Shown here: positions 12,614 through 58,186 of the stretch, piece by piece
Numbering within the stretch: the first letter of the stretch is position 1
Layout of the letters: each line of letters starts with the position of its first letter
Assembly: GCA_018241725.1 (NCBI GenBank)
Contig: JAFEDI010000045.1
Coordinates: forward strand, 95,894-159,893
DNA from: Pseudomonadota bacterium
Lineage (GTDB): Bacteria > Pseudomonadota > Gammaproteobacteria > Burkholderiales > Rhodocyclaceae
DNA length: 64,000 bases
Direction of reading: 5' to 3'
The notes under the pieces: generated by a model
Told to the model about the DNA's origin: nothing
What the model saw: only the letters and a program-made list of their open reading frames with translations
The model's database searches: none
Translations under genes and position numbers: made by a program

Positions 12614-14461
12614 TCAGAGCCCCAGGCGCTCCAGGGTTTCGGCGGTCGGCACCCCGTCCGGCGTCCACCCGCGCAGCTTGTAGTACTCCGGCAGCATCGT
12701 CGCGAGGCCGTTCACCAGGCCCTTGGCCGGCCCGGTCTTGGCCGGTTCGGTGGTCAGGCGCGGCGGCAGGTTGTCGTCCTTGCTGGTCAGGCCCGCCGCG
12801 TTGTTGAAGAGGCGCTCCATATTCCAGATCCGCTCGCCCATCGCGTTGAGCTTTTCCATCGACCAGTCGCCTTCGCAGGCCGCTTCGATCTGCGGCTGCA
12901 CGTCGGCCACCGTCCACGCGAAGGACGTGAACACGCAGATCCCTGCCGCATCGAAGACCGCCGTCGCGTCCTGGAAGGCCTTCACCAGCTCCGGCTTGCC
13001 GTCGGTGGTGAGCGGATCGGTCTTGACCGGGATACCCAGCACTTCCGACGCCACCGTGTAGCCGCGCAAATGGCAGGCGCCCCGGTTGGACGTGGCGTAG
13101 GCCAGGCCCATGCCCTGGATGCCGCAGGCGTCGTAGGCCGGGAATTCCTGGCCCTTGACGGTCATCGACAGTTCCGGATGGCCGTACTTCGCGCACAGGC
13201 GCCGGGAGCCCTGGCCGATTTCCTTGCCGAAACCCTCGCCGCGGGCGGTCATCTCGGCCAGGCGGGCCAGTGCCTCGGCGGAGCCGAAAGGCGCCTCGGT
13301 GCAGAGCTGCTCCTTGGTCAGCACGCCCATCTCGTAGAGCTCCATCACCGCGCCGATGGTGGCGCCGAAGGAGATCGGGTCCATGCCCTGCTCGTTGCAC
13401 AGCAGGTTGGCGTACTGCAGCGCCTCCAGGTCGCCGACGCCGTTGGCGGCGCCGAGCGCCCAGGCCGCTTCGTACTCCAGGCCACCGGAAGCCCCCCAAT
13501 ACTTGGGATTGTTCACCACCGTGAAGTGGCCCTTGTCGATCTCGGCAATGCGCCCGCAGGCGATGGTGCAGCCGAAGCAGGCGGCATTGGTGACCAGCTG
13601 CGGCTTGCCGTCGGTAGGCCGCTTCTCGTGCATGGCCTCGGCGGAGATCTTGCCCGCGTCCTCGAACTGCACGTCCTTGTGGTTGCGGGTCGGCAGCGCG
13701 CCGATTTCGTTGATGACGTTCATCAGCACCTGGGTGCCGTACTTGGGCAGGCCCTGGCCAGTCACCGCATTGTCGGCGAGGATCTTCTTCTTCTCGGTGG
13801 TGATCTTCATGAAGGCCTTCATGTCCTTGATGCCGGACACGCCCTTGGTGCCGCGCAGGGCCACCGCCTTCAGGTTCTTCGAGCCCATCACCGCGCCGAC
13901 GCCGGAACGCCCGGCGGCCCGGTGCAGGTCATTGACGATGCAGGCGAACAACACCTGGTTCTCACCGGCCAGGCCGATCGACGACACGCGGATCAGCGGG
14001 TCCTGGTGGTGATGCTTGATCGCCTCTTCGGTCTCCCAGCAGCTCTTGCCCCACAGGTCCGCAGCGTCGATCAGTTCGGCCTTGTCGTTCTCGACATACA
14101 GATACACCGGCTTCGGCGAACGGCCCTCGAAGATGATCATGTCCCAGCCGGCAAACTTCATCTCGGCGCCGAAGAAGCCGCCAGAGTTGGAGCACGCCAC
14201 GGCGCCCGTCAGCGGCCCCTTGGTGACCACCGTGTAGCGCCCGCCGGTGGAGGCCATCGTGCCGGTCAACGGCCCGGTGGACATGATCATCTTGTTGTCC
14301 GGCGACAACGGATCGACCTTCGGATCGATCTCCGACACCAGGTACTTGGTGGCCAAGCCACGGGAACCGAGGTATTCGTCGGCCCATTCCATGTTGAGCG
14401 GTTCTTCCTTGCAGGTGCCGGCGCTGAGGTCGACACGCAGCACTTTCCTGTTCCAGCCCAT
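12614..14461 (-). CDS. aorB: Tungsten-containing aldehyde:ferredoxin oxidoreductase catalytic subunit
   Basis: 615-residue catalytic subunit that oxidises aldehydes to acids with a tungsten bis-pterin cofactor and one [4Fe-4S] cluster. The N-terminus (GWNRKVLRVDLSAGTC) and the segments STGPLTGT and GGFFGAEMKFAGWD are family hallmarks. Cluster ligands are seen in CFGCTIAC in the middle of the protein, with a further cysteine (GICVFTS) towards the C-terminus. The pterin-binding stretch HRAAGRSGVGAVMGSKNLKA is present. Start at 14461 has a strong AAGGAGG site; the longer ORF to 14926 is a shadow of aorA. Lies between aorA and aorC, with tungstate uptake genes downstream. Confidence 0.93.
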   Translation of the reverse strand: MGWNRKVLRVDLSAGTCKEEPLNMEWADEYLGSRGLATKYLVSEIDPKVDPLSPDNKMIMSTGPLTGTMASTGGRYTVVTKGPLTGAVACSNSGGFFGAEMKFAGWDMIIFEGRSPKPVYLYVENDKAELIDAADLWGKSCWETEEAIKHHHQDPLIRVSSIGLAGENQVLFACIVNDLHRAAGRSGVGAVMGSKNLKAVALRGTKGVSGIKDMKAFMKITTEKKKILADNAVTGQGLPKYGTQVLMNVINEIGALPTRNHKDVQFEDAGKISAEAMHEKRPTDGKPQLVTNAACFGCTIACGRIAEIDKGHFTVVNNPKYWGASGGLEYEAAWALGAANGVGDLEALQYANLLCNEQGMDPISFGATIGAVMELYEMGVLTKEQLCTEAPFGSAEALARLAEMTARGEGFGKEIGQGSRRLCAKYGHPELSMTVKGQEFPAYDACGIQGMGLAYATSNRGACHLRGYTVASEVLGIPVKTDPLTTDGKPELVKAFQDATAVFDAAGICVFTSFAWTVADVQPQIEAACEGDWSMEKLNAMGERIWNMERLFNNAAGLTSKDDNLPPRLTTEPAKTGPAKGLVNGLATMLPEYYKLRGWTPDGVPTAETLERLGL

Positions 14462-14471
14462 GGTCGCCTCC

Positions 14472-14945
14472 TTATTCCGTGACGGCCGTGTTGGCCTTGG
14501 CAGCCCACGCCCGCATGCGGTCGAGGCCGGTCCAGTCCGCGTCGATATAGGTGATCGCGCCGGTCGGGCACGCCGTCGCACAGGCCGGATCACCACCGCA
14601 CAGGTCGCATTTCTGGACCTTGCCGGTGTCCTGGTTGTAATTGACAGTGCCGAAGGGGCACGCGATGGTGCACACCTTGCAGCCCACGCAGACATCGTCG
14701 AAGACCTGCTTGGCGCCCGTCGCCGCATCGACGCGGATCGCGTCCACCGGACAGGCATTGAGGCACCACGCCTCGGTGCACTGGGTACAGGTGTAAGGCA
14801 CCTTGCGCCCCTCGGTCTCGAAGCTGAAGACCTTGATGCGCGACTTGGAAGGATTGATGACCCCGGTGTGCTCCACGGAACATGCCATCTCGCATTGCAG
14901 GCAGCCGGTGCACTTCTTGGGATCAATGTGCAGAGATTTCCACAT
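14472..14945 (-). CDS. aorA: Aldehyde oxidoreductase iron-sulfur electron-transfer subunit
   Basis: 157-residue polyferredoxin. Sixteen cysteines lie in four groups (CTGCLQCEMAC, CTQCTEAWCLNAC, CVGCKVCTIAC and CDLCGGDPACATAC), enough for four [4Fe-4S] clusters. It would shuttle electrons from AorB to the FAD subunit AorC. The ATG at 14945 has an AGGAGG site and starts at MWKSLHIDPKKC; the ORF upstream to 14993 is not needed. First gene of the aor operon. Confidence 0.9.
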   Translation of the reverse strand: MWKSLHIDPKKCTGCLQCEMACSVEHTGVINPSKSRIKVFSFETEGRKVPYTCTQCTEAWCLNACPVDAIRVDAATGAKQVFDDVCVGCKVCTIACPFGTVNYNQDTGKVQKCDLCGGDPACATACPTGAITYIDADWTGLDRMRAWAAKANTAVTE

Positions 14946-15264
14946 CGAACGATTCCTCCTCCTGATGGATCGTGAACCGGCCGGTGCGGCCACTGCTGGG
15001 CCGAAGGTTCGCTCCGTGGAGCGCCTCGAACATCCGCCGGGCTCTATCTCCCGCCAAGGCCCACCCGAAATGGGCCAGTGTGTTTTTTGAGAATACGCCG
15101 CAGCGGCGTGAAGTCAATGCGCGGCGCGGCAAGACTGCAGCGGACGGTCGAAAGCCTGTTTCCAACAGTCGTCACCGGTCCACCGCGTTTCCCGGAAGCT
15201 GCCATCGGCGCCAACGCGGCGATATCATCCCGGGCACTGACCTCGTCGCCCGCCATGAGAAGAG
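14946..15264. promoter_or_regulatory. Divergent promoter region between aorA and an MFS gene
   Basis: About 320 bases without a gene. It must hold the promoter for the minus-strand aor operon and one for the plus-strand MFS gene. An AT-rich patch (GTGTTTTTTGAGAATAC near 15078-15094) followed by a GC-rich inverted repeat (CGCCGCAGCGGCG, near 15095) is the only striking structure. No convincing -35/-10 pair was identified. Confidence 0.4.
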
Positions 15265-16581
15265 ATGGACCCGGAAAGCCAGGAGAAAAATGCCGAAGAA
15301 TCCGGGTACGCTCGCCAGTCCCGTGTCAGGGCGATTTTGCGGGTAACCAGCGGTAACTTCCTCGAGCAGTTTGATTTCTTCCTTTTCGGCTTCTTCGCCG
15401 TCAATATTTCCCGGACCTTTTTCCCGTCAGGCAGCGAGTTCGCCTCCCTGATGCTAACTCTGAGCGTTTTCGGTGCCGGATTCCTGATGCGTCCCCTCGG
15501 GGCCGTCGTGCTGGGTGGCTATATCGATGAAGTCGGGCGGCGCCGTGGATTGATCGTGACGCTGTCCATCATGGCCTGCGGCACCGGTCTCATCGCCCTC
15601 GTGCCCTCCTACGCAAACCTTGGCGTTCTGGCCCCGATACTCGTCGTCGTCGGCCGTCTGTTGCAGGGATTTTCGGCCGGGGCGGAAATGGGCGGGGTGT
15701 CCGTCTATCTAGCGGAGATGTCTCCCCCTGGACGCCGGGGCCTGTACACGGCATGGCAATCGGCAAGCCAGCAGGTTTCTATCGTCCTTGCCGCCGCTCT
15801 CGGCTATGGGCTGCACCACTGGCTTTCCCCCCAGGAGATTGACGAATGGGGCTGGCGCATTCCCTTCTTGATCGGCTGTTCCATCATTCCCTGCATCTTC
15901 ATGCTGCGAAGAAACCTGGAAGAGACAACCGCGTTTCATGCCTGCAAACACCCGCCGGATACCCGGGAGCTGTTCGCGACCCTGCGTGCCCACTGGACGA
16001 CGGTGTTTTACGGAATGCTGCTGGGGGCGATGACGACGGTCACGTTCAACTTGATCACGGTCTACACCCCAACCTTCGGACGCACCGTTCTCAATCTGTC
16101 AGCCACTGACAGTCTGTTGGTCACGCTTTGCATCGGAGTCTCGAATTTTCTCTGGCTGCCGATCGGCGGTGCGCTTTCCGACCGGATCGGCCGGCAGGCG
16201 GTCCTGATGACGGTAGCCACCCTCGCGCTGGCGAGCGCCTATCCCGCGTTCGCCTGGCTGGCTGACAGCCCGAGCCTGCCCCGCCTGCTGGGCGTGCAAC
16301 TTCTCTTCTCCGTCTACTACGGCCTCTATAACGGCGCCATGATCCCGGCGCTCATCGAGCTCATTCCATCCAGGATTCGGGTCACGGGGTTCTCGCTGGC
16401 CTTCAGCCTGGCCGCAGCCCTGTTCGGGGGCGTGACCCTGGCGATGTCCACCTTCCTCATCAATGAGACCGGTGACAGGGCCGCTCCGGGCTACTGGATG
16501 AGCTTCGCCGCCGGCTGCGGCCTCGTTGCCACGCTGATGCTTTACCGCAAGAAATCATCGGCACATGCCCTCACGACTTAG
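15265..16581 (+). CDS. MFS transporter, metabolite:H+ symporter (citrate/tricarballylate-like)
   Basis: 438-residue inner-membrane symporter with 12 predicted membrane segments. Family motifs include [14 protein letters not shown] at the first helix, [24 protein letters not shown] (loop 2-3) and [15 protein letters not shown] (helix 4), all typical of the MHS group that takes up citrate, tricarballylate or alpha-ketoglutarate. It is strongly similar along its length to the second MFS protein at 18398-19711, so the two are paralogues flanking a LysR gene and a binding-protein gene. The exact start is uncertain; the first ATG gives an N-terminus about 20 residues longer than the paralogue. Confidence 0.85.
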
Positions 16582-16591
16582 CGCGGGCAGC

Positions 16592-17491
16592 TCATAAGGC
16601 CCGGACGGCCTGTTCCAGAAGTTCAGACAGCGCCTGCGCCGCCGGCTGAAGCCTTCCGCCCTTGCGGGTGATCAGTCCCAGAGTCCGGGTGATGTCCGGA
16701 TCCGTCAGGGGGATGCTCACCAGATTGGGATACACATTGTCGCCGAGCGCCAGCCCTGGCAAGACGGCCACACCGAGCCCGGCGGCCACCATGCTGATGG
16801 CGCCAGTCACATGGTTGATCTCGTACTGGATGCTGGGCCGTCTTGCGACCTTGGCCAGGGCGTTATCGATCAGCATCCGATTGCCGCTGCTTTGTGAGAC
16901 GGATACGAGCTTTTCACCGGCCAGGTCCTCCCACACCACCGTTTTCTCCCCCGCCAGGCGATGGTCCTTGCGTGCCATCAGGACATAGTGCTCGGTATAA
17001 ATGGCCTTGAAATCGATGTCGGCTTCCTGGGTGCCGATGAAATTCACGCCGAAATCCGCCTGTCCGGCCACCACGCAATCCAGGACATCCCGTGCACTCT
17101 CGTCAATGACCTTGACCCGGACGCCCAGGTGGGTTGAGGCAAATTCCTTCAGTACCGTCGGCAGCAGGTAATTTGCCACCGAGGGCACACAGGCAATCGT
17201 AAGACTCTCCCGGCGTAGCACCGTCCGTTCCGCCATGCCCTGCATGGCCATCTCCAGCTCTTCGATCACCGCCTCGGCGTGGCCCAGAAACTGCCGGCCT
17301 TCATCCGTCAGGGAGACGCGCCGCGTCGTCCGCTCCAGCAAACGAATCTGCAGGCTGGCCTCCAGTTTCTCTATACGCCGGCTCAATGCGGGCTGGGAAA
17401 TGAACAGGCTCTCGGCCGCCGCCTTGAAGCTTGATTTCTCCGCCACGGCAATGAAGGCCTGGAGTTCGCCGATCTCGAAGTTGATGCGCAC
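16592..17491 (-). CDS. LysR-family transcriptional regulator
   Basis: 299 residues, normal for the family. The N-terminal winged helix-turn-helix covers about residues 5-65 (FIAVAEKSSFKAAAESLFISQPALSRRIEKLE), followed by the effector-binding domain. It is convergent with the first MFS gene and divergent from the binding-protein gene at 17582, so it most likely controls the latter operon in response to an organic acid. The 90-base gap to 17582 is AT-rich and would hold its operator. Confidence 0.88.
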   Translation of the reverse strand: MRINFEIGELQAFIAVAEKSSFKAAAESLFISQPALSRRIEKLEASLQIRLLERTTRRVSLTDEGRQFLGHAEAVIEELEMAMQGMAERTVLRRESLTIACVPSVANYLLPTVLKEFASTHLGVRVKVIDESARDVLDCVVAGQADFGVNFIGTQEADIDFKAIYTEHYVLMARKDHRLAGEKTVVWEDLAGEKLVSVSQSSGNRMLIDNALAKVARRPSIQYEINHVTGAISMVAAGLGVAVLPGLALGDNVYPNLVSIPLTDPDITRTLGLITRKGGRLQPAAQALSELLEQAVRAL

Positions 17492-17581
17492 GGCTCATTA
17501 ATCCATGAAATAAATGCAATTAATCTTTTAATCCGCGGGATGCATTATTGCAGTGGCTCACCATAAACACAAAGGAGACAA

Positions 17582-18382
17582 ATGATGACGTGCTGGACGC
17601 TAGGCCGGAGCATGTTGCGGGGAATCATCGCCGCATGCCTTGGCCTCATGGTTTCAATCGCCGCTGCCGATGACATCCACGTCGTCAGTTCCGGCGGCTT
17701 TGCCGCCGCCTACCGGGCGCTGGCGCCCGGCTTCGAAAAGCAAACCGGCCACCATCTGGTGATCGGTTGGGGACCTTCCATGGGAGAGACTCCGCAAGCG
17801 ATTCCGAATCGCCTGGCCCGGGGAGAAGAGATCGATGTCGTCATCATGGTCGGCACTTCCCTGGATGAACTGATCAGCCGTGGCAAGGTGCTGGACGCCC
17901 AGCACCAGCTTTTGGCCCGCTCCAGGATCGGTCTGGCGGTCAAGGCCGGAGCGGCCCGGCCGGATATCTCAACCATGGAGGGCCTGAAGAAAGCCCTGCT
18001 GGCAGCCAAGAGCATTGCCTACTCGGACAGCGCCAGTGGCGTCTTCCTGTCGACGGTGCTCATCCCGCGCATGGGCATTGCCGAGCAGATCAAGAGCAAG
18101 AGCCGGATGATTCCCGCGGAGCCGGTGGGACAGGTAGTCGCCCGGGGGGAGGCGGAAATCGGGTTACAGCAGATCAGCGAGTTGTTACCGATCCCTGGCA
18201 TCGATCTTGTCGGCGCCTTGCCTGACGCCGCCCAACAGATCACGCCTTTCTCCGCCGGCATCGTCGCAGACAGCAAGGGCCCGGAAGCGGCCAAGGCGCT
18301 AATCAGCTACCTCGCCTCCCCCACCGCTGCCCCGCTGATCCGGCAGACCGGGCTCGATCCGGTCAACGACAACGCTCACTAG
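17582..18382 (+). CDS. Periplasmic solute-binding protein, ModA-like fold
   Basis: 266 residues with a signal peptide ending at AAA-DD. The mature start DIHVVSSGGFAAAYRALAP and the stretch WGPSMGETPQAIPNRLARGEEIDVVIM place it in the extracellular binding proteins of the molybdate-binding-like fold, but it lacks a cognate permease or ATPase nearby. Such proteins are found beside tricarboxylate-like MFS genes in betaproteobacteria; it could deliver or sense the MFS substrate. Its RBS is AAAGGAG and it is followed after 15 bases by the MFS gene. Ligand unknown. Confidence 0.78.
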   Translation: MMTCWTLGRSMLRGIIAACLGLMVSIAAADDIHVVSSGGFAAAYRALAPGFEKQTGHHLVIGWGPSMGETPQAIPNRLARGEEIDVVIMVGTSLDELISRGKVLDAQHQLLARSRIGLAVKAGAARPDISTMEGLKKALLAAKSIAYSDSASGVFLSTVLIPRMGIAEQIKSKSRMIPAEPVGQVVARGEAEIGLQQISELLPIPGIDLVGALPDAAQQITPFSAGIVADSKGPEAAKALISYLASPTAAPLIRQTGLDPVNDNAH

Positions 18383-18397
18383 CCTTTGGAGCCCACC

Positions 18398-19711
18398 ATG
18401 AAACAAACCAAAGCAGCCCGCGCCTCGAAGATCTCCACGGTCTTGCGCGTTACCAGCGGCAACTTCCTGGAGATGTTCGATTTCTTTCTGTACGGTTTCT
18501 ACGCCACGTACATTTCCAAGACGTTTTTCCCGAGCGACAACGAATACGCATCGCTGATCCTGACCTTTGCCACGTTCGGCGCTGGCTTCCTGATGCGTCC
18601 CTTGGGGGCGGTCCTCCTGGGCAGCTATATCGACCGCATCGGTCGCCGCCAGGGGCTGATCGTGACGCTGGGCATCATGGCCTTCGGCACCATCCTCATT
18701 GCCTTCGTGCCGGGTTACGCCACCATCGGCATTGCCGCGCCCATCCTCGTCCTGCTCGGCCGCCTGCTGCAGGGCTTCTCGGCGGGGGTGGAACTGGGCG
18801 GAGTGTCGGTTTACCTGTCTGAAATGGCGACGCCCGGCCACAAGGGCTTTTACGTCAGTTGGCAGTCGGCCAGCCAGCAGGTGGCCATCATGGCGTCGTC
18901 GGTCATCGGCTATCTGCTCAGCCAATGGCTGCTCCCGGAAGAGATCAATGCATGGGGATGGCGCATTCCCTTCTTCATCGGTTGCATGATCATCCCGGCG
19001 ATCTTCATGATCCGCCGCTCGCTGCAGGAAACCGAGGAATTCCTGGCGCGCAAGCACCACCCCACCTTCAAGGAGATCGTCAGCTCCATCGCGCACAACT
19101 GGCGCATCGTGATCGCCGGCATGATGATGGTCGTCATGACGACGGTGTCCTTCTACCTGATCACCGTCTACACGCCGACCTTCGGCAAGAGCGTACTCAA
19201 CCTGAGTTCCGCGGACAGCCTGCTGACCACGTTCTGCGTCGGCATGTCCAACTTCTTCTGGCTACCCGTCATGGGTGCGGCATCCGACCGATTCGGACGC
19301 CGGCCGGTATTGCTGACCTTCACGGTCCTGCCGATTCTCACCGCCTATCCGATCCTGTCCTGGCTGGTAGCGAACATCAGCTTCGAGAACCTGCTGGTGA
19401 CCGAACTCTGGCTGTCCTTCATGTACGCCAGTTACAACGGCGCGGCTGTGGTGGCCCTGACGGAAGTGATGCCCAAGCATGTCCGCACGGTTGGTTTCTC
19501 GCTGGCCTATAGCCTGGCGACCGCGGTTTTCGGCGGATTCACGCCGATGATTTCGACCTGGCTCATCGAAACCTGCGGCGACAAGGCGGCCCCGGGATAC
19601 TGGATGACGTTCGCGGCAGTCTGCGGCCTGATCTCCACCGTGATCCTGTACCACCGGTGCGGGATCGCCGAGCGTGGCGCTCCCGCGCTGGCGCCGCAGG
19701 GACAAGCCTAG
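18398..19711 (+). CDS. MFS transporter, metabolite:H+ symporter (citrate/tricarballylate-like), paralogue
   Basis: 437-residue symporter, paralogue of the protein at 15265-16581, with the same motifs ([50 protein letters not shown]). Start at [11 protein letters not shown] with a GGAG site; 4 codons of ORF upstream are ignored. It lies in an operon with the binding protein before it and the AbrB-like gene after it. Substrate probably a tri- or dicarboxylate. Confidence 0.87.
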
Positions 19712-19726
19712 TCCTGGAGTCGCGCA

Positions 19727-20809
19727 GTGACGAAAAAAGCCTCCGAACCGGCTACCGCGCGTGCTGACTTCCTGCGTCAGCTTACAGCAATGGCGGGCAG
19801 CATCGTGGTCGCTGGAGCGGGGGCCCTTTTGTGGCGATTCGGCAAGCTGCCGCTGCCGTGGCTGGTGGGGTCCCTGTACGCCATAGCACTGGCACGCATC
19901 GCCGGCCTGCCCTTGCTCGCGCCTCCCTGGGCCAGGCAAGGGGGGCAGTGGATCATCGGCAGCAACATGGGCTTGTATTTCACCTCGGCCGTTCTGGTGG
20001 AACTGGTCTCCCACGCCCCTCTGATCGTCGGGATGGCGTTTTTTTCCATGGCGATGGGCGTGGCCGGCGCCATGCTGATCGTCCGCTGGCGCGTGGCCGA
20101 CCGACCCACCGCATTTTTTTCGTCCATGCCTGGCGGGGCCTCGGAGATGGCTAATCTTTCCGACCTGTGGAACGCCTCCGTGGACCAGGTGGCAGCAGCC
20201 CACGCAACCCGGGTCATGTTGGTCGTGCTGATCGTGCCGCTCGCCTTGACACTGTTTGGCCGCCACGGAGACAGCAACGCATTGCTCCATTCCAGAAGCG
20301 TCCAGTGGCAGTACTTTCCTCTGATGATGGCCGCAAGCCTGGGGGGCATCGGCTTTTTCAAACTGTTGCGCCTGCCCAATTCCTGGGTGCTTGGCACGCT
20401 TTTGGCCGTCGCCGCACTGTCGGTCCTCGGCTTCCCCCTGTCCGGGCTGCCGGACTGGCTGACGGCCGGTGGGCAAATGCTGATCGGCATTTCCCTGGGC
20501 TGCCGATTCGGCCCCGGATTTCTGCGCAAGGCACCGGCATTCATCGCGTGCGTCGTTGCTGTCAGCCTGGTGTTTCTGGCCGTGACGGCCTCCCTGGCGT
20601 TCCTGCTGGCTGCGCCAATGGGCCTGGCCTTCCCCGGCCTCGTGCTCAGTTTCGCCCCAGGGGGCATTGCCGAGATGTCGATCACCGCGAGCCACCTGAA
20701 CCTCGGTGTGCCACTGGTGGTCGCGTCGCACGTCGTCCGCACGGCCATCCTGACGCTTCTGGCCCCCGTCGCCTTCCGTATCTTCTGTCGGCTGAATGGA
20801 GGCGGCTGA
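19727..20809 (+). CDS. AbrB-family (putative ammonia monooxygenase-like) membrane protein
   Basis: 360 residues, about 10 hydrophobic segments arranged as two similar halves. Each half contains a PLPWLVGSLYAIAL- or LPNSWVLGTLLAVAAL-like stretch and a FSSMPGGASEM or SFAPGGIAEMS motif, which define the AbrB (TIGR03082) family. The name ammonia monooxygenase is historical; the real function is unknown, but the family is often next to tricarboxylate transport genes. Starts at GTG 19727 with a GGAG site. Confidence 0.82.
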   Translation: MTKKASEPATARADFLRQLTAMAGSIVVAGAGALLWRFGKLPLPWLVGSLYAIALARIAGLPLLAPPWARQGGQWIIGSNMGLYFTSAVLVELVSHAPLIVGMAFFSMAMGVAGAMLIVRWRVADRPTAFFSSMPGGASEMANLSDLWNASVDQVAAAHATRVMLVVLIVPLALTLFGRHGDSNALLHSRSVQWQYFPLMMAASLGGIGFFKLLRLPNSWVLGTLLAVAALSVLGFPLSGLPDWLTAGGQMLIGISLGCRFGPGFLRKAPAFIACVVAVSLVFLAVTASLAFLLAAPMGLAFPGLVLSFAPGGIAEMSITASHLNLGVPLVVASHVVRTAILTLLAPVAFRIFCRLNGGG

Positions 20810-20827
20810 GAAGCACGCACAGGCCAT

Positions 20828-20854
20828 CGGGTAGCTTCCCGGGCGAAACTACCC
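20828..20854. terminator. Inverted repeat after the AbrB gene
   Basis: CGGGTAG and CTACCCG form a 7-bp stem about 20 bases after the stop of the AbrB-family gene. There is no clear T-tract, so this is a weak candidate terminator. It also marks the boundary to the lower-GC cassette region. Confidence 0.35.
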
Positions 20855-20899
20855 GTCGATACCAATTATGCCAATGCGGCACAAGCAATTGCGAATACC

Positions 20900-21259
20900 G
20901 TGCAGGCGCTCACGCCGATTGCCCTCGGCATAATTTCATGGGTTTATTTCAAGCTCTATAAAGAATCAAAGCTCAACCAAGGGGACGCCGCCAGCATAGT
21001 GAAACCCGTTTTTGGGACCCTTGGAGATAAATACAAGATTCTTGCCGTCCACAAATACGAAGCGTCCAATGAAGCTTCTGGATATACGCACATATCGCAA
21101 AACAGTCGGCCGGATCAGTGGCGGCTTCTTATTGAAATCCGAAGGTCTTTTCTCGGTATGAGGCATGAGGTCGTACCAAGGAACAACGACGACATTCTTG
21201 ACGTCATCATTAGTCGCGACGGAACAGAAAAGTGGAAGGTAATTCCATTCAACAAGTAG
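20900..21259 (+). CDS. Hypothetical protein, probable integron-cassette ORF
   Basis: About 119 residues from a GTG. A hydrophobic N-terminal stretch (LTPIALGIISWVYFKLY) suggests a membrane anchor, followed by a soluble charged domain. I recognise no family. The frame stays open back to base 20812 without an ATG, so the true N-terminus may be missing. Its composition is more AT-rich than the flanking chromosome, and the stop lies next to a likely attC half-site (ATTCAAC at 21247), the arrangement expected of a gene cassette. Confidence 0.5.
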   Translation: MQALTPIALGIISWVYFKLYKESKLNQGDAASIVKPVFGTLGDKYKILAVHKYEASNEASGYTHISQNSRPDQWRLLIEIRRSFLGMRHEVVPRNNDDILDVIISRDGTEKWKVIPFNK

Positions 21260-21330
21260 CTGTTCACCCGATGCCCGACCCGGCAGTCGAGCGGACCTGC
21301 GCGAAAACCGCACAGTCCGCTCACTTAATG
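21247..21330 (+). repeat. Left part of an attC site, split by an IS1111-type element
   Basis: ATTCAAC (21247) fits the RYYYAAC core of an attC site. It is followed by an inverted repeat GAGCGGAC (around 21289) / GTCCGCTC (21315-21322) with a loop of about 18 bases, as in attC central arms, and then CACTTAA at the insertion point. The matching right end TCAAACGTTAGAG continues at 22197-22209 on the other side of the insertion element. Joining the two restores an attC-like site of about 95 bases. Confidence 0.65.
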
Positions 21331-21411
21331 AAATGGACTCCCCCACCCCGTAGCGTGACAGACACTGAGGCCCAAGTAACCATGGGGCTGAGATCACCAG
21401 GAGGAAGTGCC

Positions 21412-21921
21412 ATGAAACAGATTGTCCGCATCGGTCTCGACATTGCCAAACCCGTCTTCCAGCTCCACGGTGTAGATAGCCACGGCAAACCGGTCTGCAA
21501 AAAGACCTTATCCCGCGGCGAAGTCCTGACCTTCTTCGTCAGCCCCTACCGCAAGAGCGGCAAGAACGACGCCAACGATGCCGAAGCGATCTGCGAAGCC
21601 GTGGGCCGGCCCAACATGCTGAACGGGCGGCAGTTTGCCGCCTGGTTGGGGCTCACGCCCCGGCAAAGCTCCAGCGGCGGCAAGACCCGGCTTGGCGCCA
21701 TCAGCAAGCGAGGGGATGCGGTGCCGCGGACCTTGCTGATTCACGGCACGAGATCAACCTTGCGCCTGACGGCCGGCAAGGAGGACAGGAAAAGCCGCTG
21801 GGCCGAGGCCCTGAAATCGAGAGCATGCAACAATGTGGCTGCTGTTGCCTTGGCGGCCAGGAATGCCCGGATCATCTGGGCGATGCTGGCTCGGGGAACC
21901 GAGTACCGAGTGGCCGCCTGA
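21412..21921 (+). pseudogene. IS1111-type transposase with a large in-frame internal deletion
   Basis: 169 codons remain of about 340. The N-terminal catalytic start IGLDIAKPVFQLHGVD (DEDD domain) runs to a shortened segment YRKSGKNDANDAEAICEAVGRPNM and then jumps directly to the C-terminal Tnp20 part FAAWLGLTPRQSSSGGKTRLG. The reading frame is preserved, but much of the catalytic and coiled-coil regions is missing, so it is almost surely inactive. A GGAGG site precedes the ATG. Confidence 0.82.
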
Positions 21922-22181
21922 ACCATACAGGCTGTCGATCTTCAACCGCAGTACCAGTGATGTCCCACCGTAGGTTTGCGAGCGAAAGTGTTGATGGGAT
22001 GACGGATCAAACCGACACGGAAAGAGCCTGATAACGTTGTTGGCCGCGCAAGGCCGTTTAATTAATGAGGCTTCCGTGGTGCGGATGTCATCAGGGCCGG
22101 CGCCGACGGGTGCCATAGTAGGCCGGATAGATTCCTGCAGGCTTGTCCATCAAACCAACAGCACATTCATCTTGCAAAATC
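21922..22181 (+). ncRNA. Putative guide (seek) RNA region of the IS1111-type element
   Basis: 260 non-coding bases between transposase stop and right inverted repeat. IS1111 elements are known to encode a small targeting RNA here. Two short strings match the target: AACGTT (22033-22038) matches the right attC flank and TTAATGA (22062-22068) matches the left junction, on either side of a GGCC/GGCC hairpin (22041-22054). Short matches can arise by chance; the RNA itself is inferred. Confidence 0.4.
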
Positions 22182-22193
22182 GGGGGAGTCCAT

Positions 22194-22209
22194 AGATCAA
22201 ACGTTAGAG
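22194..22209 (+). repeat. Right end of the split attC site
   Basis: AGATCAAACGTTAGAG contains the GTTAG core of an attC site, 14 bases before the ATG of the next cassette ORF. It completes the left part at 21247-21330. Confidence 0.65.
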
Positions 22210-22220
22210 GCCTTATCGTC

Positions 22221-22532
22221 ATGGCATGCACCAAGTGCAACGACCTTTGCGTGCGTTTCGCAATACGGCAGCCTTATGAGTTGCGTCGCGCAATAGACAT
22301 CGCAAAACAGAATGTCGAGGATGGAACGATTTCCGAAATTCCAAGTAGTAATCCGCTTTCGCAGGCGACCTTTTCCCAACTAGCGGCAGGGGAGCCGTGG
22401 GACGATATCGTCGGTTGTCGTTTTCGGTGTAATTCGTGCGGCGAGATATTCTCTCTACATGCCGAGACATATCACGGTAGTGGTGGTTATTGGGAACCCG
22501 AGAACAAAAGGTCTATCCGTGAAAACCTCTAA
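22221..22532 (+). CDS. Hypothetical protein, integron-cassette ORF with zinc-ribbon-like cysteines
   Basis: 103 residues from the ATG that follows the GTTAG core by 14 bases; the longer ORF to 22143 starts inside the insertion element. Two CxxC pairs (CTKCNDLC near the N-terminus and CRFRCNSCGEIFSLH near residue 68) suggest a metal-binding protein. The stop TAA overlaps a CTCTAAC motif resembling an attC core, the usual arrangement in cassettes. Function unknown. Confidence 0.7.
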   Translation: MACTKCNDLCVRFAIRQPYELRRAIDIAKQNVEDGTISEIPSSNPLSQATFSQLAAGEPWDDIVGCRFRCNSCGEIFSLHAETYHGSGGYWEPENKRSIRENL

Positions 22533-22560
22533 CATGGCTCTAAGGACTTCCCCGTCAAGC
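22527..22560 (+). repeat. Truncated attC-like site after the cassette ORF
   Basis: CTCTAAC (22527-22533) matches 6 of 7 positions of the RYYYAAC core, and the stop codon lies inside it. The complementary right half is not found; a terminator hairpin and a degraded IS110 element follow instead, so the site has lost its 3' half. Confidence 0.45.
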
Positions 22561-22574
22561 ACCATTTTTCAATG

Positions 22575-22600
22575 ACCGGCCGCCAGGCCGGTTTTCCTTT
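22575..22600 (+). terminator. Rho-independent terminator
   Basis: ACCGGCC and GGCCGGT form a perfect 7-bp stem with a GCCA loop, followed by TTTCCTTT. It lies 42 bases after the cassette ORF stop. From 22600 to about 22860 I see no gene; this stretch probably includes the end of the neighbouring IS110 element. Confidence 0.6.
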
Positions 22601-22867
22601 CCTGCCTACCGCTTTTCCTTCCCTGGCACTGCACGCAGTCGACGGCTCGGACAGACAGACTGCCTCTCTCTAATCGGCCTTGATCGGGTCTCGCCCGGGG
22701 CCATGCGACTAACCGCACCAGCAGGCCTCAATCGTTCATCGGCGGAATCAGGGAAACAGGGATCAGCCGTTTCTCTTTTTGATCCGCCATCAGGTTAGCC
22801 AGGCTCTCTGCTGGTCGGTCTGACCTGTTCGTCTATCGCTGATGTGCAGTTGCCATTGCTCGGTGAC

Positions 22868-23475
22868 TCAGGCCTGCTGCCAGGCCTGTGGGTTGTAGGA
22901 CTCGCCCTTGGCCAGCACCGCCCACAGTTGCCGGGCGTGCTTGTTGGCGATGGCGACCAAGGTCTTGTGGTAGCCGATCCGTCCGTTGAGCACGACGATC
23001 CACTGTTGCAGACGCGTCAGCTTTTCAGGGGATTCACGCCGCTGTTTTCGGAGCGTCGCCGCCAAGACGCTACGCGCACCTTGCACAAGCAGGGTGCGCA
23101 AGTAGTCGTCCCCTCACCGCGTGATCCGACCAAGCTTCGTCTTGCCCCCGCTGCCCGACTGACTGGGCGTGAGACCGAGCCACGCTCAGCATCAGCTCTG
23201 TCGTTCTTGACCGACTGGCGCTTGCGATAGGGGCGGGCGAACTCCGCAGCCATCAGGCGCGGTGCCAGGCCCAGACGCTGTGCCGTGCGGCCCCAATGGT
23301 GGGCGCTGCCACACGCTTCCATACCGATCACTGTGCCCGTCGGCAGCGTACTGAGCCACGTCAGAAAGCCCGATCGGTTGAACTCCCGCCGCTCCACGAT
23401 CCGACCGGTGCAGTCTGCCACGCAGGCCACGAAGACGTTCTTTGCCAGATCCACACCAACAGTCGTAGTATCCAT
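22868..23475 (-). pseudogene. IS110-family transposase, deleted and frameshifted
   Basis: The N-terminal part (MDTTTVGVDLAKNVFVACVAD to about KRQSVKNDRADAE) is the catalytic DEDD domain of an IS110-type transposase. It then joins, in the wrong frame, sequence from the C-terminal domain; the correct frame resumes as MRTLLVQGARSVLAATLRKQ and ends at NPQAWQQA. A large central part is missing. It is on the minus strand and lies between two cassette ORFs. Confidence 0.82.
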
Positions 23476-23628
23476 TTTGACTTCCCCCCTCGCCGTTTCA
23501 GATTGAGCTTAAGCAATTCAATCTTGGCACTTGGATGCCGGGTGGCAAGCCCACCAGGTGGGTGGGGGAACCTTTTGTAGTCAGTCGAGGCGCGGCTTCG
23601 CCGCTGGGCAACTTAGGAGAAAATCACT

Positions 23629-23853
23629 ATGAATAAATCTGTAACCGATCTAAGAGGAATCGCTTCATCTGGTGGCGGCATGATTCTTGATGCCAGCCAG
23701 TTTTCTGTTACTGACCTTCGTGCAATAGCATCATCAGCAAGCGGTTCTGGAGCGCGAATAACACTTCGTCACGTTGGAGCAATATCCACCACCGATCTTA
23801 GGGCAATTGCTGCATCGGGTAGCGGGTGTGTCGTTTTCGATTTTTTAGGTTAA
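23629..23853 (+). CDS. Small tandem-repeat protein, probable integron-cassette ORF
   Basis: 74 residues made almost entirely of three imperfect repeats beginning SVTDLRGIASSG, SVTDLRAIASSA and STTDLRAIAASG, each followed by a variable 9-15 residue stretch. A ribosome site (AGGAGA) precedes the ATG. No signal peptide or cysteine-rich motif. The repeat and size suggest a small solenoid or binding surface; I do not know the function. An intact attC site follows 26 bases after the stop, and a core-like TTAGGA lies just before the start, so it is best seen as a gene cassette. Confidence 0.72.
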   Translation: MNKSVTDLRGIASSGGGMILDASQFSVTDLRAIASSASGSGARITLRHVGAISTTDLRAIAASGSGCVVFDFLG

Positions 23854-23879
23854 AAAGTCAGTCCACATTAGGCACCCAT

Positions 23880-23951
23880 GCCCAACAATCCGCTCCAGCC
23901 GACCGTCAAAAAGCTACGCTTTTTGCCGTCGGCTGAGCTTTCACGTTAGCC
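23880..23951 (+). repeat. attC recombination site (intact)
   Basis: Left core GCCCAAC (23880-23886) fits RYYYAAC and right core GTTAGCC (23945-23951) fits GTTRRRY in 6 of 7 positions. Between them GCTCCAGCCGAC pairs with GTCGGCTGAGC, leaving one unpaired base on one strand, the extrahelical base expected of attC. The tip is a second stem, CAAAAAGC/GCTTTTTG. A cassette ORF starts 7 bases after the right core. Confidence 0.85.
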
Positions 23952-23957
23952 ATTACC

Positions 23958-24359
23958 ATGAACCGTTTTCCAGATGCTGAAGTGATACTACGGCTTATCG
24001 CTACTACTCAAGGTGGCAAGGGCCGCGCTATCCGTTCTGGTTATCGACCAAATTACGCGGTGAAAACTGACTATCTAACTTCGGTGCATCACGAACTTAT
24101 CGGCTCCTCAGAAATACCACCAGGTAGCGAAGGCATGGCGAATGTTTGGTTCCTGACTCCTGAGGTCTATCCGCATACACTGTGGCCGGGACGCGAAATT
24201 TCTGTTTCGGAAGGCCCCTTAGTAGTCGGCTCAGCTGTTGTAGTGTCGGTCTTTAACCCAATTTTGCAGGGTGCCAATGGCCGCTTCCGTCATCTGCGCA
24301 GGACGGCACCATCACCTATTCCGGATGGCTCCGGCAAGGGCAGTCGGCTGTTGAGATAG
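23958..24359 (+). CDS. EF-Tu C-terminal-domain-like protein, truncated integron cassette
   Basis: 133 codons. Residues 1-100 resemble the C-terminal beta-barrel of elongation factor Tu: EVILRLIATTQGGKGRAIRSGYRPNY is followed by VWFLTPEVYPHTLWPGREISVSEGPLVVGSAVVVSVFNP. Stand-alone proteins of this type occur in integron cassettes. The last ~30 residues (from about NGRFRHLRR) are translated from GC-rich sequence and overlap the end of the convergent transglutaminase-like gene, so the original 3' end and attC were probably lost at a junction near 24270. Confidence 0.65.
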   Translation: MNRFPDAEVILRLIATTQGGKGRAIRSGYRPNYAVKTDYLTSVHHELIGSSEIPPGSEGMANVWFLTPEVYPHTLWPGREISVSEGPLVVGSAVVVSVFNPILQGANGRFRHLRRTAPSPIPDGSGKGSRLLR

Positions 24360-25006
24360 CCCTCGGCAAAACGATGCAACCCCTGCGGCACCAGCGAAAG
24401 CCAGCGATTGAAATGAATGCCGAGCAGGCGGTTGTTGCCGGCCCGGGCGGCCAATGCTTCGGCCAGCGTGGCAAAGACCGGGTTGCTGTCGTCAAGGTCG
24501 CCGGCATTTGCCTGGGAAAAACTGTCCTGCCGGGCATTCCAGTCGCCGCTGGCGGCGGCTGTCAGGCCGAAACCGACGGCCAACCCCGATTCGGCCAGAC
24601 GCTGTTTTTGAAGATGCAGCATTGCCGGCTGAAAGAGATAGCTGTCGGTATGCCACCAACGCCCGGCCACCCGCACCTGGCTGACGGCGTGAAACAGTCT
24701 CGCCGGTAGACAGTAGTAGACCGGCAACGGTACGGCACCGAACAGCACACGCTTGTCGAGCGCCACGAAGCGCAGCCTGGCCGGAATGCCGGCGGCGTGC
24801 AGCAAGGCACAGAACAGGTCGCCCTGGGCATTGCAGTGACCGCGCCGAAGCGCCAAGGTGTGCTCGGGCGTTACGCCTTCAAAGCCGGCAGTAAAGCCGA
24901 AGGCGATTTCATCGCGCACGAAATCGTGGATGGCGACACAGGCCGCCTCTTCCGAACGAAAGGCGCCCTGCCCCTGCAAGGTCTCAAGGACATCCGGGAT
25001 GCGCAT
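24290..25006 (-). CDS. Transglutaminase-like domain protein
   Basis: 238 residues. The centre has the transglutaminase/cysteine-protease core: GHCNAQGDLFCALLHAAGIPARLRFVAL (Cys), later WWHTDSYLF (His, Asp). No signal peptide. Last gene of a minus-strand cluster with tetR, an ABC1-type kinase and a small membrane protein. Its C-terminal end meets the cassette region, and the final residues may be affected by that junction. Substrate unknown. Confidence 0.8.
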   Translation of the reverse strand: MRIPDVLETLQGQGAFRSEEAACVAIHDFVRDEIAFGFTAGFEGVTPEHTLALRRGHCNAQGDLFCALLHAAGIPARLRFVALDKRVLFGAVPLPVYYCLPARLFHAVSQVRVAGRWWHTDSYLFQPAMLHLQKQRLAESGLAVGFGLTAAASGDWNARQDSFSQANAGDLDDSNPVFATLAEALAARAGNNRLLGIHFNRWLSLVPQGLHRFAEGYLNSRLPLPEPSGIGDGAVLRR

Positions 25007-25050
25007 TCAACCCACCGCCACCCAAGGCGCGCGACGGATGGCGAGCCGAT

Positions 25051-25473
25051 TCACAACCGCGTCCATACCTGGGCGACGCCGATTAGATGCACGATGCCGT
25101 AGCCAAGGCAGATAAGCGAACTCCACACCAGAAATGGCGTCGCCTGCTGGCTGGCAAAAACCAGCAAGGGCAGGATGGCGAGGCCGCGCATCAGATAGAT
25201 GGCGGTAATCGCCACCAGCGCCGCTTTCTGCCTGGGCAGCGCCGTTAGAACGCCAGCTCCGGCCAGAGCATAGGCCGCCCAGGCACTTAGCACCAGAGCG
25301 ATGCAGAGCGTGACGACAGCCGGATAAAGCTGGCCGGCCGCTGCGGCGCTGGCCATGTCCTCGCCGGCCCCGAAAAAGCGATACCAGGGGGCTCCGCCCC
25401 AGACGATGAGGACATGCAGCAGCGCGGCAATAGCACTGAGAGCGGCACCGCCGATCAGCCAGATGTTGTACAT
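25051..25473 (-). CDS. Small four-helix membrane protein
   Basis: 140 residues, four hydrophobic segments (near residues 5-24, 51-70, 82-98 and 110-132). I do not recognise the family. The ATG at 25473 begins MYNIWLIGGAALSAIAALLHV; the ORF upstream overlaps the kinase gene and is not used. Its start lies just inside the end of the preceding gene's frame region, so the two are likely co-transcribed. Confidence 0.75.
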   Translation of the reverse strand: MYNIWLIGGAALSAIAALLHVLIVWGGAPWYRFFGAGEDMASAAAAGQLYPAVVTLCIALVLSAWAAYALAGAGVLTALPRQKAALVAITAIYLMRGLAILPLLVFASQQATPFLVWSSLICLGYGIVHLIGVAQVWTRL

Positions 25474-25486
25474 GGCAAAACCCTCG

Positions 25487-26806
25487 CTAAACAACCGCGG
25501 ACGCTGCAAGCGCCCCGCTCTCCCCGGCAAACCAGTGATGGCGCATGCGCACGCGAGCGCCAAGGCGCTCGAACAGCTTGCACAGGCCGTAAAAGGTGCG
25601 GTCGAAATAGATGAATTCGTCGGCCAGCCGGTCCAGGCCCTTGAGGCCGCTCATTTTGTGCATGAGCTGTTGGCCGCGCCAGGTGTAGTCGGCATGGGTG
25701 GCGAAGTCGTAGCTCTCGGCCTGCATCGGTTCGAGCAGCCAGGTGCCGAAGGGGCGCAGGATGTCGCGATAGACCTGATCATGATCGCCGCGGTGTTCCA
25801 TACCCAACCGGCGATAGGTGGCGAACAGCGCCGTGGAATCGTCGTTGGCATAGGCCTGCAGCAGTTGAGGCAGGGCTTCGGCGAACACGGGCGAAATCTC
25901 GCGCACGCAACCGAAATCGATGACGGTCACGCTACCATTGGGGTGAAACAGGTAATTGCCGGGATTGGGGTCAGCGTGCAGACGGTGCAGACACCGGGTG
26001 GAATCGACGAAGAAGTCGTAGAGCTGTTGCCCGGCGCGGTCTCGCGCCGCCTGCGACGGTTGGCCGGCCAGCCAGGCATCGAGGTGCAGTCCGTCGGCCA
26101 TTTCCGTGGTCAGCACGCGTTCGCCGCATAGTTCCGGGACCGGCGACACCAGCGCAATGCCGTCGCCGGCCGCGCGTTCGGCGAACCACGCCGTCTGCGC
26201 CGCTTCCGCCCGGTAATCGACTTCCTCGCGCAGGCGGGCGTGGATTTCTTCCAGCGACTGCTGGATCAGTGCGGCATTGGGCAAGCCGCGCGCCAACTGG
26301 CGCAACAGGGTCATGTCGCTGTCGATGGCGACGTGGATGCCGGGATACTGGATCTTCACCGCCACCGCCCGGCCGTCGTGCAGCCGGGCGCGATGCACCT
26401 GCCCGAGACTGGCGGCGGCAAAAGCCTCGCTCTCGAACTGGGCGAAAAGCGCTTCCGGGGCCTGTCCAAACGCCTGCTGCAAGGCCTTGCGCACCAGCAC
26501 GCGGTTGAGCGGCGGCACCTGGTGGCAGGATTTTTCCAGTTCGCGGCGGTAAGCCTCCGGCAGCAATTCCACCTCCATGGCCAGCATCTGCGCCGCCTTC
26601 AAGGCCGTGCCGCGCAACTGGGTCAGCGCCTCGAACAGCACGCGGGCATGCCGCTCGTCGAGCGCAGTGCGCTCCTCCGCCTGCTGCGCCGGCGACAGGA
26701 AAGGCCGCTTCAGACCATGGCCGAGGTGGCCCAGGCCGACCTTTACCGCCGCCTTGCCGGCCACCCCGGCGCGCGCCAGGCGCCCCTCAGGCAGGGCGGG
26801 TTTCAT
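25487..26806 (-). CDS. ABC1/AarF (UbiB)-family atypical kinase
   Basis: 439 residues. The ABC1 domain shows the nucleotide-binding lysine in RAVAVKIQYPGIHVAI, the catalytic-loop-like HADPNPGNYLF and the metal-binding VIDFGCVREI. UbiB relatives act in ubiquinone biosynthesis, but this protein lacks the C-terminal membrane helices of UbiB and belongs to the soluble branch. The start at 26806 overlaps the TetR stop by 20 bases; the longer frame to 26863 is less likely. Partner genes suggest a regulated lipid- or envelope-related function; this is inference. Confidence 0.82.
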   Translation of the reverse strand: MKPALPEGRLARAGVAGKAAVKVGLGHLGHGLKRPFLSPAQQAEERTALDERHARVLFEALTQLRGTALKAAQMLAMEVELLPEAYRRELEKSCHQVPPLNRVLVRKALQQAFGQAPEALFAQFESEAFAAASLGQVHRARLHDGRAVAVKIQYPGIHVAIDSDMTLLRQLARGLPNAALIQQSLEEIHARLREEVDYRAEAAQTAWFAERAAGDGIALVSPVPELCGERVLTTEMADGLHLDAWLAGQPSQAARDRAGQQLYDFFVDSTRCLHRLHADPNPGNYLFHPNGSVTVIDFGCVREISPVFAEALPQLLQAYANDDSTALFATYRRLGMEHRGDHDQVYRDILRPFGTWLLEPMQAESYDFATHADYTWRGQQLMHKMSGLKGLDRLADEFIYFDRTFYGLCKLFERLGARVRMRHHWFAGESGALAASAVV

Positions 26807-27536
26807 CGCTGCCGGCCATGAAGCGCCGTTTCGTCGCCATTGCCGCCTGACGCAGGCTGGCAAAGCTCTCCAGATGGCTCAGCACATGGCTGCGGAAAAG
26901 GAAGGAGACGAGATCGAAGGCTTTGCCGATCAGCCCCAGATGCAGGATGCCGCCGACAATTTCCATGCTGCGATCGAGCAGTTGCGTGGTGTTGGCGAAG
27001 CCTTCCGAATCGTCCTTCAGCCAGTAGGCAAGGATGCCGGTCTGAAAATCCCAGAACAGGCGCGGCAGCAATTCGCTGTAGGGCTGCGCCGGAATCTCGC
27101 CGGCCTCGATGGCGGCGTCGAGCAGGTCGACGACCATGCGCTGGTTGAGTTGGCGGCTTACCGCCAGCAGCTCGTGGGCAGCACCCGGCGCCTGAAAACT
27201 GAGCTCGAACACCTCGCGCAGGAATTCGCGCGCCGGCAGCCAGGTTTGCAGTTCCAGATCGACCAGCTGCTGCAACTGCTCGACCAGCGAGTATTCGTGG
27301 AAATCGGCAATCCCCTGCAAGCCGGCCATCACTCGCCGCTGCACCTGCTCGCAGTAGCCATAGACCAGTTTTTCCTTGCTAGGGAAATAATTGTAGATGG
27401 TGGCATCGCCCACCCCGGCCCGCTGCGCGATCTCGCGCATCGACGCCGCGCGGAAGCCCTTGGCGCTAACCACATCGACCGCCGCCTCCAGGATCCGCTC
27501 CCGGGTTCGTTCCTTTTCCTGCTCATTGATCTTCAT
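26787..27536 (-). CDS. TetR-family transcriptional regulator
   Basis: 249 residues. N-terminal helix-turn-helix spans residues 15-60 (ILEAAVDVVSAKGFRAASMREIAQRAGVGDATIYNYF). The C-terminal ligand domain is longer than usual and lacks a recognised class. Start ATG at 27536 is preferred over GTG at 27545 because its spacing from AGAG is better. It is first in the cluster and faces a promoter with two inverted repeats, so it likely regulates its own operon. Confidence 0.85.
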   Translation of the reverse strand: MKINEQEKERTRERILEAAVDVVSAKGFRAASMREIAQRAGVGDATIYNYFPSKEKLVYGYCEQVQRRVMAGLQGIADFHEYSLVEQLQQLVDLELQTWLPAREFLREVFELSFQAPGAAHELLAVSRQLNQRMVVDLLDAAIEAGEIPAQPYSELLPRLFWDFQTGILAYWLKDDSEGFANTTQLLDRSMEIVGGILHLGLIGKAFDLVSFLFRSHVLSHLESFASLRQAAMATKRRFMAGSDETRPA

Positions 27537-27547
27537 CACGGCCACTC

Positions 27548-27612
27548 TAAAGTGAAATTACTATTCGTAAACTAACATCAAATACGAATTTGTAAACTGC
27601 ATTTTCACTTTA
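27548..27612. promoter_or_regulatory. Two nested inverted repeats upstream of tetR
   Basis: The outer arms TAAAGTGAAA (27548-27557) and TTTCACTTTA (27603-27612) are perfectly complementary. Inside lie ATTCGTA (27563-27569) and TACGAAT (27583-27589), also perfect. The two repeats are not exactly concentric (centres about 4 bases apart), so they may be two separate operators, for example for the adjacent TetR protein and a second factor. Confidence 0.6.
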
Positions 27613-28201
27613 ACGAGTCTCCCGGTTCCCGAAAAGCTAGGCTGGATCGAAATAACAGGCAAACGGAAAACGGCGAAGGAAGGTCTGCCATCGGTTCTCC
27701 CTGCCTCTACAGCCGGCGGGGCATCTGGCCCAATCAATATCGCCGCATGCCCTTGCGCGTCCGGGGCTGTCCTGACGACCGCCCACGCAGCTTGTACCTC
27801 GTGAAAAGAACATTCTCCGACGCCACGGAATGATTCAGTGGTGCCAAATATTCATTTTTTCCCGTGAAAATCCTGATTTTTCATACGAAAAATCGAAATT
27901 TTTCCATGGCAGAAGCCATTCTTCACTCCACAGAATCCTCCAGCGGCACGGAATAATGGTTTTTTCACGCCGCCAGACGATTCCGTTACGAAGAAAAATC
28001 AATCAAGCGGCGGCGCTCGGGCATTTCGTCATATGACAAAGCTCTCCAGTGACGCCACCCGATCATTTTTTCGCCTGAAAAATCGATTTTTTCAACCGAC
28101 AGAAAATTTTTTTCATATGAAAAAATCCTTGCGCGACGCCGCATGGTCACGCAGCCATCCGATGTGCTATTAATTTCACCTCCCCAAGCAGGAGACGCGC
28201 G
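27613..28201. promoter_or_regulatory. Gene-free region with a cluster of TTTTTC-N4-GAAAAA palindromes upstream of moeA
   Basis: About 590 bases without a convincing gene. Three strong palindromes with a 4-base spacer occur: GATTTTTC/GAAAAATC (27875-27894), ATTTTTTC/GAAAAATC (28065-28084) and ATTTTTTTC/GAAAAAATC (28106-28127). Weaker copies lie at 27856-27871 and 28085-28106. The repeated motif next to a cofactor gene looks like a multi-site operator for one DNA-binding protein. Identity of the protein is unknown. Confidence 0.55.
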
Positions 28202-58082: not shown

Positions 58083-58186
58083 AGATGGTGCTGAACCGTC
58101 TCCCGCTATACCTCCCTGAGCGGGTGCCTTGAGCAAGCAAGGCATTTTTCGACCCCCGGCGCTCCCCTTGCCGGGGGTTTTTTATT
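58083..58186 (+). ncRNA. Candidate small RNA with an anti-Shine-Dalgarno loop
   Basis: Three consecutive hairpins: CCCGCT/AGCGGG (58101-58106, 58118-58123) with loop containing CCTCCC (58110-58115); TGCCTTG/CAAGGCA (58124-58130, 58137-58143); and a terminator. No ORF of its own. Compare with bacterial cuckoo-type sRNAs, which display CCUCC loops. The 5' end is only estimated from a TACACT -10-like sequence. Confidence 0.55.
58152..58186 (+). terminator. Strong rho-independent terminator
   Basis: CCCCCGGC and GCCGGGGG form an 8-bp stem (58152-58159, 58169-58176) followed by TTTTTTATTT on the plus strand. No protein gene is transcribed into it, so it most likely ends the candidate small RNA. 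Confidence 0.85.

Follow-up and report, generated by a model that had tools for sequence, protein, structure and literature searches.

Layout of the cluster and its attC sites

We analysed a 64,000-nt stretch of a Rhodocyclaceae genome (assembly GCA_018241725.1, contig JAFEDI010000045.1, positions 95,894 to 159,893), here called the window, which holds a 3,461-bp cluster of four small open reading frames (ORFs), orfA to orfD, interspersed with integron attC sites and insertion sequences (ISs). An initial annotation had described the locus as resembling a cluster of attC sites lacking an integrase (CALIN). The features are listed below in window coordinates; G014 is the closest relative among the genomes compared, and R1 is the attC model described after the list.

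20814..24274 (+): cassette cluster between two backbone blocks, delimited by the ends of the G014 alignments
20900..21259 (+): orfA, an orphan, probably without its start
21273..21325 (+): left part of attC1 (R'', L'', loop and L'), within an R1 match
21326..22196 (+): IS#1, an 871-bp IS1111-type remnant with a shortened transposase
22197..22209 (+): right part of attC1, core GTTAGAG, from rejoining of the halves
22221..22532 (+): orfB, a conserved cassette gene with kin in genomes G004 and G055 and in plasmids
22526..22538 (+): left core side of attC2, undetected by R1
22539..23581 (-): IS#2, an IS1111-type remnant with a broken transposase
23582..23619 (+): degenerate right part of attC2, from flank comparison
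23629..23853 (+): orfC, 74 amino acids
23880..23951 (+): attC3, intact
23958..24359 (+): orfD, a homologue of EF-Tu domain III to about 24270, then antisense of the flanking gene

The attC sites were scored with a covariance model, R1, trained on this genus with 14 sites, 12 from arrays of five congeneric species and two from contig C6 of the window's own genome; the window's own sites were excluded from the training. Over the 64 kb, R1 matched 23880-23951 on the forward strand with 41.2 bits (E 3.3e-8), and a motif-and-fold scan found the same site plus three weaker hairpins elsewhere in the window, so the well-formed attC site annotated here is borne out. Its opposite strand scores 22.1 bits, and the orientation of attC3 thus agrees with that of the ORFs. 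The second match, 21273-21338 (+; 31.9 bits, E 8.9e-6), is to attC1, though its last bases belong to the insertion element. This site had been annotated as split between 21247 and 22209; the split is real and the right half is at 22197-22209, but the left edge lies at 21273. When the two halves were rejoined by script they gave a 66-nt attC-like hairpin, and an uninterrupted relative is present in G014 (locus L073, 17070-17130; 79% identical over 61 nt, R1 25 bits). The annotated truncated attC has its best counterpart in attC2 (22526-22538 plus 23582-23619), which proves to be IS-split itself, with a degenerate right core that R1 misses. No further convincing attC was found in the window, where the next R1 match has E 0.91; an unfiltered R1 scan of 20000-25400 gave nothing beyond the known sites better than E 0.45, and no attC was recognised downstream of orfD. 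The covariance-model search that had been proposed as a check, run on window and genome, therefore returned matches at both of the places named for it.

The cluster also stands out in composition, and the low G+C claimed for its four ORFs holds (0.472, 0.503, 0.467 and 0.502 for orfA to orfD, vs 0.644 for the window); of about 1,200 windows of matching length taken outside the cluster, no more than 0.7% are equally low. The flanking backbone at 12963-20813 aligns with G014 contig C19 and that at 24275-27668 with G014 contig C63, and both alignments end at the cluster edges, with which the breakpoints coincide; the two blocks lie on different G014 contigs. Behind the AbrB gene, G014 continues with about 1 kb of other sequence before the contig ends. 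Next to the transglutaminase gene, G014 carries a stretch of its own, with two R1 matches at E <1e-3 and two weak ones, other cargo, and the opposite direction relative to the gene. The transglutaminase gene is found at E<=1e-30 in 2 of the 23 genomes of the genus, the window's genome included, and a close AbrB relative (94%) in G014 only.

Insertion elements in the attC sites

One insertion element in an attC site had been annotated. The element in attC1 is indeed there, but the cluster holds two elements, each of IS1111 type and each lodged in an attC site. The transposase profile NF033542 matches IS#1 at E 1.5e-38 and pieces of IS#2 at 5e-23 and 3.9e-9; these matches fall below the whole-protein cut-off because the transposase frames of both elements are shortened or broken. 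IS#1 has 12-bp subterminal inverted repeats at 21333 and 22182, and for its removal 7 bp beyond the left repeat and 3 bp beyond the right repeat were taken off and the flanks joined, the 3-bp extension outside the right repeat being presumably where the element ends. The repeats are exact over 12 bp in IS#1 and in a 95% identical copy of IS#2 on contig C6, and the window's IS#2 has an altered right repeat. The C6 copy lies inside a fuller attC. The left end of IS#2 is also found by itself, in G014 and where the C6 array ends, and in every case a CTAAC core precedes it. Longer relatives of IS#2 occur on plasmids of Azospira sp. I09 (90.8% identical) and Acidovorax temperans (87.1%), aligning over 1,055 and 1,045 query bases respectively within about 1.5 kb; the Azospira copy stands behind a CTAAC core with no evident attC arm on its right, and the Acidovorax copy has neither. 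A fixed place of insertion within attC is thus seen for IS#1 and for the C6 copy of IS#2 only, the Azospira copy having just a left core and the Acidovorax copy none.

These features resemble those of the IS1111-attC elements ISKpn4 and ISPst6, as they are described in extracts of PMC11187229: an IS110-type transposase (here a remnant), 12-bp subterminal repeats and, for IS#1 and the C6 copy of IS#2, insertion in attC between the L and R boxes. The elements differ in that their transposases are broken and that a relative of IS#2 also occurs outside attC. A guide-RNA test looked for paired 6-base matches to the target core, 50-120 nt apart, in the downstream non-coding region, and found them in three of the four element/target pairs (IS#1 and, for IS#2, the C6 and Azospira copies). 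Shuffling gave such matches in 13 to 20 of 1000 cases for these three, and the target of IS#2 in the window itself had no paired matches. Two of the pairs, C6 and Azospira, are homologous, the spacing limits were set after an earlier look at the data, and the signal of guide-RNA pairing in these sequences is suggestive only.

Cassette cargo and the EF-Tu domain III homologue

Cassette comparison in relatives, also proposed at the outset, placed kin of orfB, orfC and orfD in other attC arrays. For orfA, neither plasmids nor the family sample's other 198 genomes yielded a relative; the frame stays open upstream as far as 20810, and the start may therefore be lost. Relatives of orfB occur in two of the 198 (77% in G004, 61% in G055) and in 33 plasmid records. 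The G055 contig carries relatives of both orfB and orfD, with five R1 matches on one strand, and the G004 relative (L104) has no R1 attC nearby, nor was one found in L103. Relatives of orfC are likewise found in two of the 198 family genomes, at 58% in G147, where an attC of 60.4 bits follows directly, and at 46% in G117, with no attC match. Elsewhere they occur in one plasmid record, three IMG/VR contigs (one with attC matches) and one phage record (39%); a search of genome contigs gave a single match, which is probably the G117 contig again. The attC adjoining the orfC relative in L083 is weak (19.3 bits, E 0.0099), with stronger ones elsewhere in that locus. No R1 attC was found beside the cargo relatives in L077, L078, L079, L081, L082, L084 or L085. 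The orfC relatives in two IMG/VR contigs (L082 519-743 and L084 3995-4216) lie by terminase-like ORFs, as read from the frames, and have no attC matches.

Judged from these alignments, the proteins of orfB and orfC look conserved, with differences that are mostly synonymous: the proportions of nonsynonymous (pN) and synonymous (pS) differences are 0.153 and 0.725 for orfB vs G004 and 0.331 and 0.889 for orfC vs G147, values at which synonymous sites are near saturation. The orfC protein matches phrog_27431 (E 2.3e-22), a family of unassigned function, and its structure model (pLDDT 92.9) shows three helix-strand repeats. Kinship of orfC with transcription activator-like effector (TALE) repeats was considered, since a five-member profile reached whole-sequence E values down to 2.2e-14, and rejected: no chain has more than a single passing stretch, and TALE repeats are helix-helix whereas the orfC model is helix-strand. 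The repeats of orfC (23629-23853) and of TALEs both contain a short IAS-x-GGG motif, a likeness that we judge to be a short motif summed across many repeats rather than kinship.

The oddest part of the cluster is orfD. Its reading frame runs on from about 24270 into the antisense of the transglutaminase gene. A five-member orfD profile matches EF-Tu domain III over residues 7-98 with E 1.8e-11 to the best PDB chain (E 0.0018 with the single sequence), and a Pfam search gave no match at E<=1. About 90 orfD residues align over the third domain of EF-Tu; orfD differs from EF-Tu in having neither the G domain nor domain II, and its identity to long EF-Tu-like frames is only 24-27%. By profile comparison, then, orfD is a free-standing EF-Tu domain III homologue. 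The family search gave one small-protein match (37%, in G055, with an attC after the gene) and five further genomes near E 1e-3, four with frames of about 400 amino acids resembling EF-Tu itself and the fifth, G170, with a 131-amino-acid frame. Relatives of orfD also occur in six plasmid records. Three of these were inspected, one being a class 1 integron's variable region, carried by an Aeromonas plasmid, and in none of the three loci was a convincing attC found after the orfD relative; in L080 an attC match lies between aac(6')-Ib and a LysE gene, and after the orfD relative the best reaches only 10.3 bits (E 0.12). A scan of viral contigs with orfD found no relative. One speculative and rather doubtful idea is that free-standing EF-Tu domain III proteins form a family carried by integrons and would serve as EF-Tu decoys or modulators, binding of toxins that take hold of EF-Tu being one example. 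Searches of an open-licence library, which leaves out most subscription journals, showed no description of such cargo.

Integrase loss and the origin of the cluster

The integrase gene was searched for genome-wide with TIGR02249 at E<=0.001, a threshold at which all 14 control genomes also match. No integrase above the family cut-off was found in the genome and nothing at that threshold on the window's contig, C91, so the annotated absence of intI from the window holds for the whole of that contig; no intI remnant was found on it. What the search elsewhere in the genome, likewise proposed earlier, did recover is a stub of 59 codons beside prfC on contig C6, 94.9% identical to the intact IntI of G007. 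As the stub is N-terminal, the genome's own integrase would no longer be able to move cassettes. A C136 match (E 5.2e-20) was not counted, being a tyrosine recombinase next to an IS91-type transposase on a 4.1-kb contig, as read from the ORFs, and matches on C31 and C57 (E 8.6e-9 to 2.6e-5) were attributed to other tyrosine recombinases. The C136 contig (L016) also holds a weak attC match (25.1 bits).

Among congeners, four of ten intI loci have prfC in the stretch examined (G007; G019, contig C11; G004, contig C96; and G016, with a partial IntI), a count that is in effect a minimum, some of the other loci being cut by contig ends; the IntI proteins of the G019, G004 and G016 loci are 92-97% identical to that of G007. 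A smaller search gave five R1 matches on the strand of the C6 array beside prfC, training sites accounting for two of them, and the cassette-like ORFs of this array (L017 9881-15809) include an FRG-domain protein and a DUF4844 protein. Genome-wide, R1 gave 12 matches at E<=1e-3 on six contigs, with the two training sites included. In the genus, matches at E<=1e-3 occur in at least 19 of 23 genomes, a lower bound with 150 candidates scored per genome, and IntI matches at E<=1e-40 in 8 of 23, seven of them over the family cut-off. From these counts, integron relics seem commoner than platforms in the genus. The window's cluster resembles the sedentary integron at prfC of G007, G004, G019 and G016 in having similar attC sites, attC3 being 93% identical to the first attC of its own genome's prfC-side array, and differs in lying on another contig without an integrase.

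IntegronFinder 2 reports a CALIN where at least two attC sites lie without an integrase, according to an extract of PMC9024848. Here one intact and one IS-split attC lie about 2.5 kb apart with no intI, as scored with R1, and the CALIN-like interpretation offered at first is supported. A complete integron has intI with an adjacent attI; contig C91 has no intI. Like known CALINs, the cluster has attC sites and cassette genes without an adjoining integrase; it differs from them in having one intact, one IS-split and one degenerate attC, and edges that are not cassette ends.

Taken together, the attC sites, the cassette-type cargo, the absence of intI from the window and edges that stop short of complete cassette ends indicate that 20814-24274 is probably a piece of an integron's cassette array that is now a decayed CALIN, in a genome that has lost its integrase but for a stub. 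The cluster is a known kind of element, real but, orfD apart, ordinary. The initial annotation saw in it a source of new small genes; small genes it has, but with incomplete edges and a 59-codon stub for an intI we prefer a decayed relic to an active source. The cassettes (orfA with attC1, orfB with attC2, orfC with attC3, and orfD) would have been captured earlier when an integron integrase, probably IntI from the genus' sedentary integron adjoining prfC, acted on folded attC sites. Later they would have become detached from the platform, the likeliest cause being a rearrangement or deletion in which cassette A was cut and cassette D lost its attC. The two IS1111-type elements would have entered attC1 and attC2, in each case between the L and R boxes, and then decayed, and the genome's own intI would have been deleted down to its N-terminal stub, possibly in that order. 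Still, attC3 might be usable by an integrase supplied in trans.

Extracts of PMC8618304 give three routes to a CALIN, namely off-target insertion, loss of intI, and rearrangement. In the first, an IntI in trans would have inserted the cassettes between the AbrB gene and the transglutaminase gene, using a secondary site there, with decay in place. The spread of attC matches over six contigs would fit this, but the cluster ends off cassette boundaries (at one edge the orfA frame is still open, and orfD lacks an attC) and its flanks are not adjacent in G014, and we consider it unlikely. With neither edge a complete cassette end, rearrangement or deletion is favoured over site-specific insertion as the route of arrival, with modest confidence. 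A separate integron with its own intI, lost at this locus, is a slightly poorer candidate still: the G014 array beside the same transglutaminase gene suggests that the locus may be an old cassette site, but C91 has no intI remnant and the stub is beside prfC on C6. That the cluster is no integron at all, and the sites chance hairpins near small foreign ORFs, is very improbable. The motif-and-fold scan alone does yield three other weak hairpins, but R1 separates attC3 and attC1 (E 3.3e-8 and 8.9e-6) from the next site (0.91), and three of the four ORFs have relatives in other attC arrays.

Several observations weigh against a decayed CALIN separated from the prfC platform. The genome is a draft of 151 contigs, and with some attC matches on short contigs or close to where a contig ends (C137, C140), an intI could be hidden in a gap. 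The window's attC2 escaped R1 even in the unfiltered scan, and the IS#2 relative on the Acidovorax plasmid sits outside any attC. G014 holds its own attC array beside the same transglutaminase gene, and either lineage, that of the window's genome or of G014, may therefore be the rearranged one.

Elsewhere in the window, Rfam matches a group II intron at 62630-62706 (48.1 bits) and an anti-hemB small RNA at 58099-58185 (68.7 bits). Two transporter-like genes, at 15337-16546 and 18443-19652, are alike (about 67% DNA identity when cross-matched through G014), and between them, as read from the ORFs, lie a LysR-type and a substrate-binding-type frame.

Through its integrase stub, the spread of its attC sites over six contigs and the insertion elements lodged in such sites, the genome, and this cluster in it, illustrates a possible end of a sedentary integron. 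The cluster leaves orfB, orfC and orfD as small, testable proteins of unassigned function, with orfD the lead worth following.

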